Shown here one piece after another: positions 2,915-9,522 of a stretch of 22,374 bases of DNA (within the stretch, counting starts at the first letter, position 1; the number at the start of each line of letters is the position of its first letter). The DNA comes from a virus. The notes below the pieces were generated by a model. It saw only the letters and a list, made by a program, of their open reading frames with translations. It had not been told where the DNA came from and did no database searches. Made by a program: the position numbers and the translations under genes. The DNA is taken from positions 1 to 22,374 of IMG/VR virus record IMGVR_UViG_3300020214_000142, one strand, 5' to 3'.

Positions 2915-4557
2915 GAGATAGGGAAATACTATCGGACTATGATTATTTTAGAAGTGTAGTTGACATTGTTGAACACGCAAAAAGAATAAGCGTCAAGCTT
3001 ACTTCATGGCGAGGGGATAATTATGTAAAACACATTGAAGCTGATAATTATGAATTGAATGTAGCTAATCCAGTTTGTAAGGGAATATCAAAGGCAGCAG
3101 CATTAGCGCATGAGTGTGGTCATCTTCTTGCAGAGTCCCCATTTACAGAAATGAGTTTAGTTCTTAAACGCTGGTCTTCCGTTGACAGAAAGTTTCAACT
3201 ATATTGGAAATGTTATAATATAATAGAAGATCAAAGAATAGAGTTTTTTGTACAAAACAAATGGAAAGTGAATAAAGAAAGATTTTATAAAACAAGAATT
3301 GCACTTGGTAAAAATCTTGTACCATTTGACGATGACCCATTATCAGAATTACTAGCAACACGATTTTTTAGATTTGACATGGTAAAGAATAAGAAAAGAT
3401 TAAAAACATATCAAGATTGTTTAAAACTAGTCGAAGGTACTGGTAGATGGGGTTCATTAAAGATTCTATTAATATTAAAACCAATACTCGATGAGTGGTT
3501 TATCAAACAGAAAGACTTTACACCACAAAAAACACCATTAACATTAAACCCATTCACCAAAAATGAGTACAATGAAGCAGACTTGAAGAAAATTGAAGAA
3601 ATTAAGGGAAAGTTCAATGATTTAATAGACTCTACCAAAAAAATAGATGAGAAATCACTTAACAAACTTTTAGAAGAAGATAGAGATGACTTTAAGAAAA
3701 ACATGAAGAGTTTGAATGAATCCATTCAGAATAATTCAATGGAACAACCAAAAATGAAAAAAAAATATAATTTAATTGATAGACAAACTAAAAATTATTT
3801 TGTAAATAAAAAAATGTCCAGTGAACTTGAAAGGTTCTTAAAAAAGATCAAAGAGAGAAAAACAATCTCACATAATGATTTTGGCTTAGAAGTTGATGTT
3901 GAGCAATATATTGAAAACAAGATTACAAATAAAGATAGAACCAAAGTAATGATAAGCGAGGCAGTTGACGATGGTATAGCCATAGTTTTATCAATAGATG
4001 CGTCTGGTTCAATGGAATCATATAACAACAATATGGCTAGGGCGAGAAACCTTGTTAGTACATTATTTGATGCTGTAAAAAATCAGCCCCAGATAAATGT
4101 TAGAGCAAACGTTTGGGCTTCAGATGATTACGGAAAAGTTGGAATCACTGAAATTAAAAATATTAAAGACTGTGAGAAAATAACATATCAAAATCCTTAT
4201 GGATTAACGCCAACTCATCTAGCATTAGAATACTCGGCAGAGCAGATAGAAAAAATGTCTGGTAGAAAAAAACTTGTGATTTTGATTACAGATGGGAAAC
4301 CAGAATACAGACTTAGAAAACATTTGTTATCAACCAATCAAATGATAACTATTTGTAAAAAGTCATTTACCAAAGCAAGATCCTCATGTCCAAACATAAC
4401 TTGCATATTACTTAATCCTAAAGACCTAAATGAACCGAAACGAGTCATGGAAGCCATATTTGGCAAGAGAAGATTTATGAATGTATCAGATATGGAACAG
4501 GCTTCAGAAAAAGTTATTAAACAGTTTAAGCAGATGGTAATTAGAAATTTAAAATGA
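2911..4557 (+). CDS. VWA protein, CobT/NorD-like, with HExxH motif
   Basis: The 548-residue protein has three parts. Residues 1-120 include HECGH (67-71) and NIIEDQRIE (103-111), a pairing seen in CobT- and NorD-type VWA proteins, where it looks like a metalloprotease fold. Residues 200-320 are charged and probably coiled-coil or linker. The C-terminal VWA domain has a full MIDAS site: D363-x-S-x-S in DASGS, T435 in TPTH and D461 in TDGKP, which would bind Mg2+. In this family the VWA protein is the partner of the MoxR/CobS ATPase immediately upstream, and the two genes overlap as ATGA. The next gene overlaps in the same way. Whether the HECGH motif is catalytic or only structural cannot be told from sequence. 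Confidence 0.9.
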   Translation: MRDREILSDYDYFRSVVDIVEHAKRISVKLTSWRGDNYVKHIEADNYELNVANPVCKGISKAAALAHECGHLLAESPFTEMSLVLKRWSSVDRKFQLYWKCYNIIEDQRIEFFVQNKWKVNKERFYKTRIALGKNLVPFDDDPLSELLATRFFRFDMVKNKKRLKTYQDCLKLVEGTGRWGSLKILLILKPILDEWFIKQKDFTPQKTPLTLNPFTKNEYNEADLKKIEEIKGKFNDLIDSTKKIDEKSLNKLLEEDRDDFKKNMKSLNESIQNNSMEQPKMKKKYNLIDRQTKNYFVNKKMSSELERFLKKIKERKTISHNDFGLEVDVEQYIENKITNKDRTKVMISEAVDDGIAIVLSIDASGSMESYNNNMARARNLVSTLFDAVKNQPQINVRANVWASDDYGKVGITEIKNIKDCEKITYQNPYGLTPTHLALEYSAEQIEKMSGRKKLVILITDGKPEYRLRKHLLSTNQMITICKKSFTKARSSCPNITCILLNPKDLNEPKRVMEAIFGKRRFMNVSDMEQASEKVIKQFKQMVIRNLK

Positions 4558-5085: not shown

Positions 5086-5298
5086 ATGTGTAAAGGAAAA
5101 TGTAGTTTTTTTTCTAAAAAATATAATGAGCGTTTTTACTATTGTCAAGGTTGTGCAAAAAGAATAGGTGAAAGTAATCTAATAAAAGAAAAAAATCATG
5201 GTAGACTTAGATGTTCATGCTGTAATGGTTTAGTAAGAACAAAATTTATGGTTTATAAAGAAGACCACTTAGTTAAATTTTTGAATTACAAAGAGTAA
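5086..5298 (+). CDS. Small double-Cys-pair zinc protein
   Basis: The 70-residue protein has CKGKC near the N-terminus, CQGC at about 23-26 and CSCC near residue 44, with many Lys and Arg residues. This suits a two-site zinc knuckle that could bind RNA or DNA. It has its own TATA box and is immediately followed by the promoter of the putative structured RNA at 5331. That neighbourhood makes an RNA-binding role conceivable, but nothing in the sequence proves it. No family recognised. Confidence 0.65.
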   Translation: MCKGKCSFFSKKYNERFYYCQGCAKRIGESNLIKEKNHGRLRCSCCNGLVRTKFMVYKEDHLVKFLNYKE

Positions 5299-5300
5299 GA

Positions 5301-5308
5301 TTTATATT
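5301..5308 (+). promoter_or_regulatory. TATA box of the putative structured RNA
   Basis: TTTATATT lies so that an archaeal start site 26-30 bases downstream falls at about 5328-5333, the exact 5' edge of the closing stem of the RNA described at 5331-5453. The upstream bases AAGA resemble the region before the TATA boxes of protein genes here. Confidence 0.55.
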
Positions 5309-5330
5309 ATAGGTATGATTATTAATAGTA

Positions 5331-5453
5331 GTGTGGAGCTTGACTGGCAAGAGAAATGACTCTGAAACTCGCACAACTGTTGAAAAGAGAGAAACTCACA
5401 GTTGCGAAACCCTATCGCAAGGGGTTCTGTGGGTATAAGAATCAAGCTACATA
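5331..5453 (+). ncRNA. Putative structured non-coding RNA (~123 nt)
   Basis: No credible ORF fills this region, yet it folds well. The ends 5332-5343 and 5442-5453 pair as a 12-position stem with one G-A mismatch (AGCTTGA with TCAAGCT at the inner part). Inside are three hairpins. A: AGAG 5350-5353 with CTCT 5360-5363. B: 5370-5380 with 5398-5406, nine pairs and a 2-nt bulge, extended by GAG 5387-5389 with CTC 5395-5397. C: 5408-5413 with 5421-5426. The single-stranded parts carry repeated GAAAC motifs. A TATA box ends about 23 bases before the stem, and a T-run follows in the hairpin element at 5463. I do not recognise the class: no tRNA, SRP, RNase P or C/D-box features fit. An H/ACA guide is unlikely because of the multi-way junction, although ACA does follow the closing helix. 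Confidence 0.5.
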
Positions 5454-5462
5454 ATATTAACG

Positions 5463-5509
5463 AGGCGTTTTTAACATGGGCTTTGGCTCATGCAAAACAA
5501 GCCACGCCT
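5463..5509. terminator. Hairpin element with AGGCGTTTTTAAC 13-mer, between convergent units
   Basis: AGGCGTTTTTAAC (5463-5475) is followed by a 7-bp hairpin (5475-5481 with 5486-5492, loop TTTG), flanked by TTTT/AAAA and by an outer AGGCG/CGCCT pairing (5463-5467 with 5505-5509). It lies between the + strand RNA and the 3' end of a - strand gene, so a two-way terminator is the simplest reading. The same 13-mer begins the element at 10831, also at a convergent junction. Confidence 0.45.
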
Positions 5510-5519
5510 ACCACACTTA

Positions 5520-5750
5520 TTAAATTAAACTTTCTTCAGCCCAAGCCATATTAAAGATAGCTCGTTCTTCCTGTTCGTCATCCATTTCTACATCTAAAAT
5601 ATTTAAAACGTGATGAATAAGTTCGTGTTGTATTGTTTTATAAATATCGTCTAATGATTCGTGATTGTTGAGATAAACAATAACTCTCTGTGTAGTAGGA
5701 AAATATGTACCCCTATCTTTACCCGCACATCTTAAATTTATTTCTGCCAC
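5520..5750 (-). CDS. Small HExxH metallopeptidase-like protein
   Basis: The 76-residue protein carries HELIHH with H42, E43 and H46 as a zinc-binding HExxH helix, followed about 15 residues later by a Glu-rich helix (DDEQEERAIFNM) that could give the third ligand. Short proteins of this layout are common in tailed phages and resemble the zincin core of ImmA/IrrE or SprT-type peptidases, though no substrate is known. The start codon is GTG at 5750. A TTTAAATAAT box at 5767-5776 can serve this gene and the divergent + strand gene at 5795. The protein could be a small protease or only a zinc-stabilised fold. Confidence 0.7.
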   Translation of the reverse strand: MAEINLRCAGKDRGTYFPTTQRVIVYLNNHESLDDIYKTIQHELIHHVLNILDVEMDDEQEERAIFNMAWAEESLI

Positions 5751-7570: not shown

Positions 7571-9522
7571 CTATGAATTATACCGATTCAGCTTTTAGAG
7601 ATCTAATTTATGAAAAACTAACATCTTATAAACACTCTAAAATTATTAGTGGTTTAAAACCAAATAGTATTTACTCATTAGATATTGAGAGTGAAGACTT
7701 TGTTAATATTTTTAGTATTAAACCAGATGGTTTTAAAGAAGCTGTTAAATCTGTAATCTTCAAAATATTATCAGAACAATATCTCCAAATTAATGTTGAA
7801 GAGGCATTTGCTGATTTACAAATAAAGTTAGTTGGTAAAGAGCCAATACAAATGCATGACATTAATTCAAGATATGAAAATACAGTTATAACATTTGACT
7901 GTATCATATCCGCAACAGATTCCCCGAAAACATATATAAAAAACGGTTTGGCTCACTGTCCAAGTTGTTTTATTGAGGAAGAAGTTAAATGTGATTTTGA
8001 AAAAAAACTAGTATTACCAATATGTTTAAATCAAGCATGTAAGAAGTCAAAGATGATTTTAAGTTCTAATAAAGTTGTTACTGATGATGTGCAGGTTTTG
8101 TTTTTACAGGAACAATTAGAAAACGCCAAACATAGTTCACCCGTATTATTTATGGGTAAGGTATATGGAAATGATGTAAGTACATCATATGTTGGACAAA
8201 AGAAAAGAATCACTGGTATCTTTAGATCTATCATAGATGAACAAACAAATGAGAATGATGTGTATATTGATGTGTTATCAATCAATAATCTAGAAGAAGA
8301 AGCGGAAATACTTCCAACGGTTGAAGAAGAAAAAAATCTAAGATTAGAAGCGCAAAAATCAGAATACATAGAAAACCTGATAGGAAGTTTTGCCCCGAAC
8401 ATATATGGAATGAAAAATATTAAATTATCCATATTACTACAACTTGTGGGTAGTGTGAAAAGTAATAGGCGTTCTGATATTAACATATTTTTAGTTGGTG
8501 ACCCATCTATGGCTAAATCGGAGTTGTTAAAGTATGCAAAAAAAATTACAAAAAAATCAATTTATACATCTGGTCGTGGTACTTCGGCTGCGGGTTTAAC
8601 CATAGCGGTTGTAAAGATTAATGATAGATTTGTTGCTCAGGCTGGAATATTACCACTATGTAATGGTGGTTATGCTATGATTGATGAGTTTGATAAGATG
8701 AATAAAGATGATAGAAGTGCCATGCATGAGGCTATGGAACAACAGACAGTTAGTATTGCCAAGGCTGGTATCGTACTAAGCTTGCCAACTAATACATCAA
8801 TACTCGCAGCAGCCAATCCAAAATACGGTGCATACGACCCAGATAGCACACTGAGAGATAATGTGGACATACCAGTACCCCTATTATCAAGGTTTGATTT
8901 GATCTGGTTGATAAGAGACACGGTTAATGTAACAGAAGACATGTTAAAAGCAACACATATTATTGATTCGTTTGAAACAGATGACTCGACAAAAAAACAG
9001 ACTAAATTTAATGAGGATATGATGAGGAAGCTGTTAAATTTAGCAAAACACCAAATACCAAAGTTAAATGATGATGTAAAAACAGAAATAATTAAAATTT
9101 ATAATCAAATGAGAGCAGCATCTAATTCTGACGAATTACCAGTTGGTGTTAGGCAATTAGAATCTTTGATTAGATTATCATATGCGTTAGCCAAACTAAA
9201 ATTAAAAGATTTTGTAGATGTTGAAGATATAACTGAAGTGAAAACTTTGATAGAAGCCATGTATAATTCATTCAGTCTTACAATAAGTTCTAGTTCAAGA
9301 CAGCAAATTTTAACTGGAACCACGAAAGAAAACAAACAACATTTGGCAGAAAAAATTTGGGTGGATTGTGAAGATGATAGTGGTAATGTGAACATTGTAG
9401 ACTTTATGAATAATCTAGTTAAAGGTGGATTTGAACCATTTGAAGCAAAAAAGTTATTTGGTACTTGGGAGAGATATAATCATATAAAACTTAACAGTAA
9501 CGGTACATACAGAAAGGCATAA
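7567..9522 (+). CDS. mcm: MCM replicative helicase
   Basis: The 651-residue protein has the full MCM layout. An N-terminal domain with a zinc site (CPSC at about 137-140, later CLNQACKK) is followed by an OB fold and the AAA+ core. Walker A is GDPSMAKS (K317), Walker B is AMIDEFDKM, sensor 1 is AAANPKYG, and the arginine finger is LLSRFD. A C-terminal winged-helix-like region follows. Archaeal MCM is a hexameric 3'-5' helicase that unwinds DNA at the fork. Length is close to cellular archaeal MCMs, so the gene appears intact. ATG at 7567 overlaps the previous stop; a second ATG at 7573 is possible. RadA follows 24 bases later. A virus-encoded MCM indicates its own replication initiation or helicase loading. 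Confidence 0.95.
   Translation: MTMNYTDSAFRDLIYEKLTSYKHSKIISGLKPNSIYSLDIESEDFVNIFSIKPDGFKEAVKSVIFKILSEQYLQINVEEAFADLQIKLVGKEPIQMHDINSRYENTVITFDCIISATDSPKTYIKNGLAHCPSCFIEEEVKCDFEKKLVLPICLNQACKKSKMILSSNKVVTDDVQVLFLQEQLENAKHSSPVLFMGKVYGNDVSTSYVGQKKRITGIFRSIIDEQTNENDVYIDVLSINNLEEEAEILPTVEEEKNLRLEAQKSEYIENLIGSFAPNIYGMKNIKLSILLQLVGSVKSNRRSDINIFLVGDPSMAKSELLKYAKKITKKSIYTSGRGTSAAGLTIAVVKINDRFVAQAGILPLCNGGYAMIDEFDKMNKDDRSAMHEAMEQQTVSIAKAGIVLSLPTNTSILAAANPKYGAYDPDSTLRDNVDIPVPLLSRFDLIWLIRDTVNVTEDMLKATHIIDSFETDDSTKKQTKFNEDMMRKLLNLAKHQIPKLNDDVKTEIIKIYNQMRAASNSDELPVGVRQLESLIRLSYALAKLKLKDFVDVEDITEVKTLIEAMYNSFSLTISSSSRQQILTGTTKENKQHLAEKIWVDCEDDSGNVNIVDFMNNLVKGGFEPFEAKKLFGTWERYNHIKLNSNGTYRKA

Follow-up and report, generated by a model that had tools for sequence, protein, structure and literature searches.

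A predicted structured non-coding RNA with a near-invariant arm in viruses probably related to marthaviruses of ammonia-oxidising archaea

The 22,374-base IMG/VR virus record analysed here (the window) encodes, at positions 5327-5520 of the plus strand, a real structured non-coding RNA, as judged from folding z-scores, homologues and covariation, and its expression is predicted. The RNA belongs to a new family, which matches none of the described classes with which it was compared; virus-encoded structured RNAs as such are already known. The original prediction had placed an unassigned structured RNA with its own promoter at 5331-5453. Its essence is borne out by compensatory changes in an inner stem (P1) and in the true outer stem (P0), as well as by the recurrence of a TATA-like element upstream, the transcript itself being predicted. 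However, the RNA does not end at 5453 but extends to near 5520, and only its 5' two-thirds had been outlined.

The window carries genes for an MCM helicase, a RadA/UvsX-like recombinase, a CobS/MoxR-type AAA ATPase adjoining a VWA protein, and a large terminase. When bacterial and archaeal genomes were scanned, the best relatives of the window's MCM came mostly from Nitrososphaeria, including many Nitrosopumilaceae, and passages of PMC7678222 present RadA, ATPase and CobS as genes typical of marthaviruses and their freshwater relatives. Based on these MCM relatives and this gene set, the window probably represents a marthavirus-like tailed virus, with ammonia-oxidising archaea as its predicted hosts. 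The freshwater Marthavirus relatives share the RadA, ATPase and CobS-like gene set with the RNA-carrying viruses, and the same passages of PMC7678222 make no mention of any non-coding RNA. A protein encoded at positions 637-1149 of the window, which is weakly similar to pyrimidine dimer DNA glycosylase (PF03013, below the Pfam cut-off), is conserved among the RNA-bearing viruses.

A relative found via the neighbouring peptidase-like gene contains, elsewhere in its genome, DNA similar to positions 5445-5512 of the window, which lie just 3' of the RNA as originally outlined and form its most conserved stretch. A covariance model of this 3' stretch (R1), which contains the P2 arm, was used together with sequence patterns to find the family. 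As a result, the RNA was identified in seven IMG/VR contigs (the window and six others) representing five distinct sequence types: the window, 3300025889_000128 (L009), 3300025889_000149 (L012), 3300028198_000003 (L010) and 3300001838_000086 (L095), the latter with two near-identical copies, L114 and L122. The R1 matches to P2 have E-values from 1e-15 to 1e-24. The full model (R2) misplaces the 5' half of the RNA in L010 and L095 with their long variable arms, and was used as a finder, not as proof of P0. Both models were applied to about 45 other related viral records, some of them fragments, with no copy found, and further pattern scans for the family returned chance matches only. R1 also found no copy in six Nitrososphaeria genomes or, under strict filters, in 250 genomes of the host family. 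Among 400 genomes of the Nitrososphaeria class, a set partly overlapping with the family-wide one and searched with strict filters, there was a single match (L229, E-value 0.004), which was not upheld by the full model (E-value 1.5). Other rejected candidates include L011, L221 and L224 (coding or GC-rich, scoring weakly or not at all with the model), L096 (within a coding region), and L262 and L263 (chance matches). Since copies are few among related viruses and none was upheld in genomes of the host class, the RNA looks viral and patchy in its distribution.

All five types share the same order of core elements, namely P0, P1 following without a gap, a linker of 5-6 nt, hairpin P3, an arm of variable size, the 3' strand of P1, a linker starting with ACA, the P2 arm, a single A and the 3' strand of P0, whereas the total size of the RNA ranges from 155 to 260 nt. 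P0 (5327-5336 with 5511-5520) comprises 7 bp in the window (AGUGUGG/CCACACU) and 10 bp in L009, L012 and L095. An internal UGUGG at about 5428-5432, proposed by R2 in local mode as an alternative 5' strand of P0 in the window, was rejected, as it offers 5 bp versus 7 bp and its position is unlike that of P0 in the other types. P1 is formed by AGCUUGA (5337-5343) and UCAAGCU (5442-5448), the latter followed by a conserved single-stranded ACA, with which the linker between P1 and P2 begins (ACA...ACG, 5449-5462, single-stranded); L010 and L095 have an extra hairpin in this linker. The closing stem had been drawn at 5332-5343/5442-5453. Its inner 7 bp are P1 and carry double changes, whereas its outer part (UGUGG with ACAUA) has no such support; in homologues, the outer strand pairs instead with the counterpart of CCACAC... 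at 5511-5520, forming P0, and the ACA is single-stranded.

P3 (5350-5363), a hairpin already recognised in the original prediction, is real and conserved, with 4 bp, of which three show double changes, and a hexaloop of the RANNGA type (AAAUGA, AAUUGA, AAAAGA or GAAUGA among the types). The variable arm (5364-5441) differs between homologues in both size and fold, and the inner arms bear no resemblance to each other; thus, the two hairpins described at 5370-5406 and 5408-5426 do fold in the window but have completely different equivalents elsewhere. The three GAAAC motifs pointed out earlier are closely spaced, which is mildly unusual (chance 0.06 per window), but this set is absent from the homologues. 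P2 (5463-5509), identified by R1 matches, double changes and G-U pairs, is a long, highly conserved 3' arm with two asymmetric internal loops, which separate a base stem (5463-5468/5504-5509), a middle helix (5470-5472/5496-5498) and a tip (5475-5482/5485-5492). What had been taken for a separate hairpin with a T-run after the RNA (about 5458-5512) is this most conserved arm, and the TTTTT belongs to its 5' side and is not a terminator. In L095, the G007-type RNA is preceded by three strong hairpins upstream of P0 (about 1180-1345) that are absent from the other types, and the transcript there may be longer or processed.

The covariation was assessed on an alignment of the five types with the variable arm removed (A4). 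MAFFT alone misaligned P0 and P1, so the sequences were cut to the core, equalised and aligned with the structure in mind; one linker base was removed from L010 and two bases from the window, so that MAFFT aligned the helices. In A4, 97.2% of cells are paired and 17 out of 36 pairs show double changes (40 double-change cells), at a statistical depth limited by the five distinct sequence types. None of 500 shuffles reached any of the five measures, and sliding the partner by 1-3 columns reduced the pairing to 31-45% and collapsed all measures. Double changes were found in seven out of ten pairs of P0, in two out of five modelled pairs of P1 (100% paired), and in the middle helix and tip of P2, the base stem of which is invariant. 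Hence every core helix except the P2 base stem contains compensatory changes. These substitutions in homologues from related archaeal viruses, for which the original prediction had proposed to look, mark the element as a conserved structured RNA, and the computation establishes both the fold and its maintenance by selection.

Given that the structure had guided the making of A4, P0 was also tested without any alignment: the 10 nt that follow P2 were compared with the 400 nt preceding it to find their best complement. This is the P0 strand in all five types, with P1 directly after it. The match is 10 out of 10 bp in L009, L012 and L095, where 0, 9 and 4 of 1000 shuffles, respectively, were as good; taken alone, the test is weaker for the window (7 bp, 55 of 1000 shuffles) and L010 (6 bp, 212 of 1000). 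The region 5327-5520 folds with -55.8 kcal/mol (z-score -3.1, 2 of 300 shuffles as good), and the 123 nt of the original outline with -33.6 kcal/mol (z-score -2.35, 3 of 200 dinucleotide shuffles as good), the latter being suggestive only. Single-sequence folding places P0, P1, P3 and the P2 arm in the minimum-energy structure of each type (z-scores from -2.5 to -6.0), with the inner P0 pairs having a probability near 1; the P2 base stem of the window is less certain, with a pairing probability of about 0.5.

Two pairs of P2 are G-U in every sequence, and both P0 and P1 contain G-U variants. The invariant G-U pairs of P2 point to an RNA transcribed from the plus strand, since the same positions would be mismatched in DNA or on the opposite strand. 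The stretch had been described as gene-free, and indeed no conserved open frame and no shared ORF were seen among the homologues; the P2 loops of L009 and L012 differ by a single-nucleotide indel, so that any reading frame is shifted, and such frame-breaking indels indicate that the RNA is non-coding. Both the strand and the non-coding nature are thereby established computationally. The TATA box noticed at 5301-5308 (plus strand) is present as the TATA-like octamer TTTATATT, a predicted promoter located 26 nt before P0, and TTTAAATA/TTTATATT elements precede P0 by 30-48 nt in L012, L009 and L010, so that the distance varies between 26 and 48 nt in four types. In L095 there is no TATA-like element close to P0, and the extra 5' hairpins are found there instead. 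A T-rich tract follows P0 in L095, L012 and L009, whereas the window and L010 have no clear T-run.

Two other repeated motifs were observed in these viruses. TATA-box-like AACCTTTATATACCC units are repeated in tandem in L095 (at about 1155 and 1580-1710), near the G007 RNA locus, and at positions 1-130 of L008, the start of the G001 record; they are perhaps an array of promoters or regulator sites. The motif GTTGTACAC, a candidate operator, recurs near gene starts in several of the viruses, sometimes as an imperfect repeat, including the window at about 551-573 (as GTTGTACACGCATTTGTACAC), L010 at 3350-3376, L002 at about 5690-5703, L008 at about 104-113, and a gap in L071; no match was obtained for one strict spacing pattern of this motif.

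Among the related viruses, the RNA occupies four different loci. In the window it lies between a small zinc-ribbon-like gene (5086-5298, plus strand) and a convergent HELIHH gene encoding an SprT/M76/M78-like, peptidase-like protein (5520-5750, minus strand), and the stop codon of this HELIHH gene falls at the 3' end of the RNA. The RNA comes after a pyrimidine-dimer-glycosylase-like gene in G004 and G008, upstream of a gene of about 430 aa in G007 and G059, and between a 107-aa gene and an AIG2-like gene in G037. Otherwise collinear relatives lack the RNA at the corresponding loci, and thus the comparison demonstrates a change of its genomic position. In most relatives, the zinc-ribbon-like and peptidase-like genes abut, overlap or have an AIG2-like gene between them, so the window copy has the look of an insertion, a cassette of about 220 bp that begins shortly upstream of the TATA element and extends as far as the stop codon of the convergent gene. 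G033 (reverse complement of L071, about 7720-7800) carries another kind of stem-closed element (AATTGCCTAG / CTAGGCAGTT) at this locus, located between the peptidase-like gene and a 69-aa gene. It encloses two small hairpins, is directly followed by TTTTTT and lacks a P2 arm, and may be another small RNA or a terminator. A protein of about 100 aa without a Pfam match (L237:2123-2437, minus strand; L239:9719-10003, plus strand; and homologues) is present in G004, G007, G008, G037 and G059, and BLAST did not find it in six genomes that lack the RNA. As an RNA-specific partner it was not retained and is only a lead, since it also occurs in G001 and G033, where the RNA was not detected; the G001 record ends near where a G007-like RNA copy would lie.

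As the explanation for these data we lean, with a confidence slightly above even, towards a free-standing, trans-acting viral RNA that has its own TATA promoter, docks a conserved partner through P2 and serves as a scaffold or decoy. In this scenario, the host archaeal RNA polymerase would probably transcribe the 155-260 nt RNA from its TATA promoter, and the transcript would end just after the outer stem. The RNA would then adopt two nested three-way junctions, P0/P1/P2 on the outside and P1/P3/variable arm on the inside. Docking of a conserved partner, most likely a protein, would fall to the near-invariant P2 arm and its asymmetric internal loops, and the variable arm would be an extension that is tolerated or specific to the virus. 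During infection, such an RNA would most likely act as a scaffold or decoy by binding a protein of the host or the virus. This role is inferred, as are the timing of its action, its binding to a protein and its transcription. In favour of a trans-acting RNA with a conserved partner, the same RNA is found at four loci, as would not be expected from a cis regulator of one gene, the window copy is an insertion between genes that abut or overlap in most relatives, and P2 is near-identical between L010 and L012, the MCM proteins of which are 45% and 69% identical to that of the window, respectively, while the inner arms are unlike each other, as would suit a docking site and a free arm. The same pattern could also have arisen if viruses recently exchanged the P2 arm. 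More tentatively, and with clearly less confidence, the RNA may represent a new viral class that forms the core of a ribonucleoprotein (e.g., a motor, host-takeover or counter-defence complex) in marthavirus-like viruses and that has moved as a promoter-plus-RNA cassette.

Several alternative explanations were considered. A special case of the decoy reading would be an RNA for counter-defence or host takeover that imitates an RNA of the host. Like typical accessory anti-host genes, the RNA is patchily distributed and gained as a cassette, and P2 changes more slowly than the viral proteins, as if constrained by a host partner, but no Rfam class was matched and nothing similar to P2 was upheld in the host-class genomes searched, so we regard this version as rather unlikely. 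We give even less weight to a viral machine RNA, either a packaging-motor RNA like that of phi29 or an RNA-only assembly like ROOL and GOLLD. The compact shape with paired ends, multi-way junctions and a variable arm on a conserved architecture would fit, as would the virus-only distribution in the searches made; however, no complementary or palindromic multimerisation loops were seen by eye, the RNA is far smaller than ROOL or GOLLD, and the viruses encode an ordinary large terminase, while many relatives have no detectable copy.

A DNA-level element resembling an RNA fold, such as a replication origin, cruciform, packaging or recombination site, is improbable. The region is intergenic, rich in inverted repeats and near the replication genes for MCM and RadA, and A-rich tracts lie upstream in L009 and L012, but the invariant G-U pairs and the changes from A-U to G-U are sensible only for RNA, a TATA box is located upstream, the position varies and the window has no such A-rich tract. 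More improbable still is control of a neighbouring gene in cis, with the RNA acting as a leader, riboswitch or 3' UTR element. In L010 the RNA is indeed just upstream of a co-directional AIG2-like gene, whereas in the window the next gene is convergent, and each of the four loci has different neighbours, so that no consistent leader position emerges and this explanation is largely refuted. Finally, the window fold taken alone is only moderately better than its shuffles, as a non-functional chance fold or remnant might be, yet the compensatory changes in the core helices and the near-identity of P2 across diverged viruses already refute this at the level of structure conservation and leave it a negligible probability.

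The original statement that the RNA fits no known class agrees with the Rfam scans. Rfam 15 at the gathering threshold gave no match for the window, L002, L003, L005, L007 and L008, and relaxed scans gave none for 5250-5530 at E-values up to 5 or for L009 at E-values up to 1. ARAGORN detected no tRNA or tmRNA genes in the scanned stretches, and readings as a K-turn, H/ACA, C/D, RNase P, SRP or known ribozyme RNA were rejected because of lacking motifs and no Rfam matches. 5S rRNA is a three-way junction with a closing helix of about 10 bp and two arms. The archaeal-virus RNA shares the closing helix of about 10 bp and the two arms, but differs in a long linker between the arms (about 14-30 nt), an extra inner junction and the absence of an Rfam 5S match. 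In the packaging RNA of phi29, the ends are paired in a closing helix, a three-way junction is formed and the sequence varies under a fixed fold, all of which are common to the RNA described here; in contrast, the latter has no Rfam match, two nested junctions instead of one, no complementary pair among the P2 and P3 loops of the five types upon inspection by eye, and a conventional TerL in its viruses. No description of non-coding RNAs of these archaeal viruses was found in the open-access literature searched. The nearest RNAs in kind, ROOL and GOLLD of bacterial phages and prophages, range from about 660 to over 800 nt, are often located beside tRNA islands and form homo-oligomeric cages (PMC12286853). 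The archaeal-virus RNA is smaller, has no tRNAs in the scanned stretches and, assuming that both models are present in the Rfam copy used, was not matched by either of them; it is likewise structured, encoded by tailed viruses and conserved in fold. The predicted host archaea are abundant ammonia oxidisers, the viruses of which are mostly known from metagenomes, and a compact RNA with a near-invariant arm offers a tangible starting point for studying how they act on their hosts.
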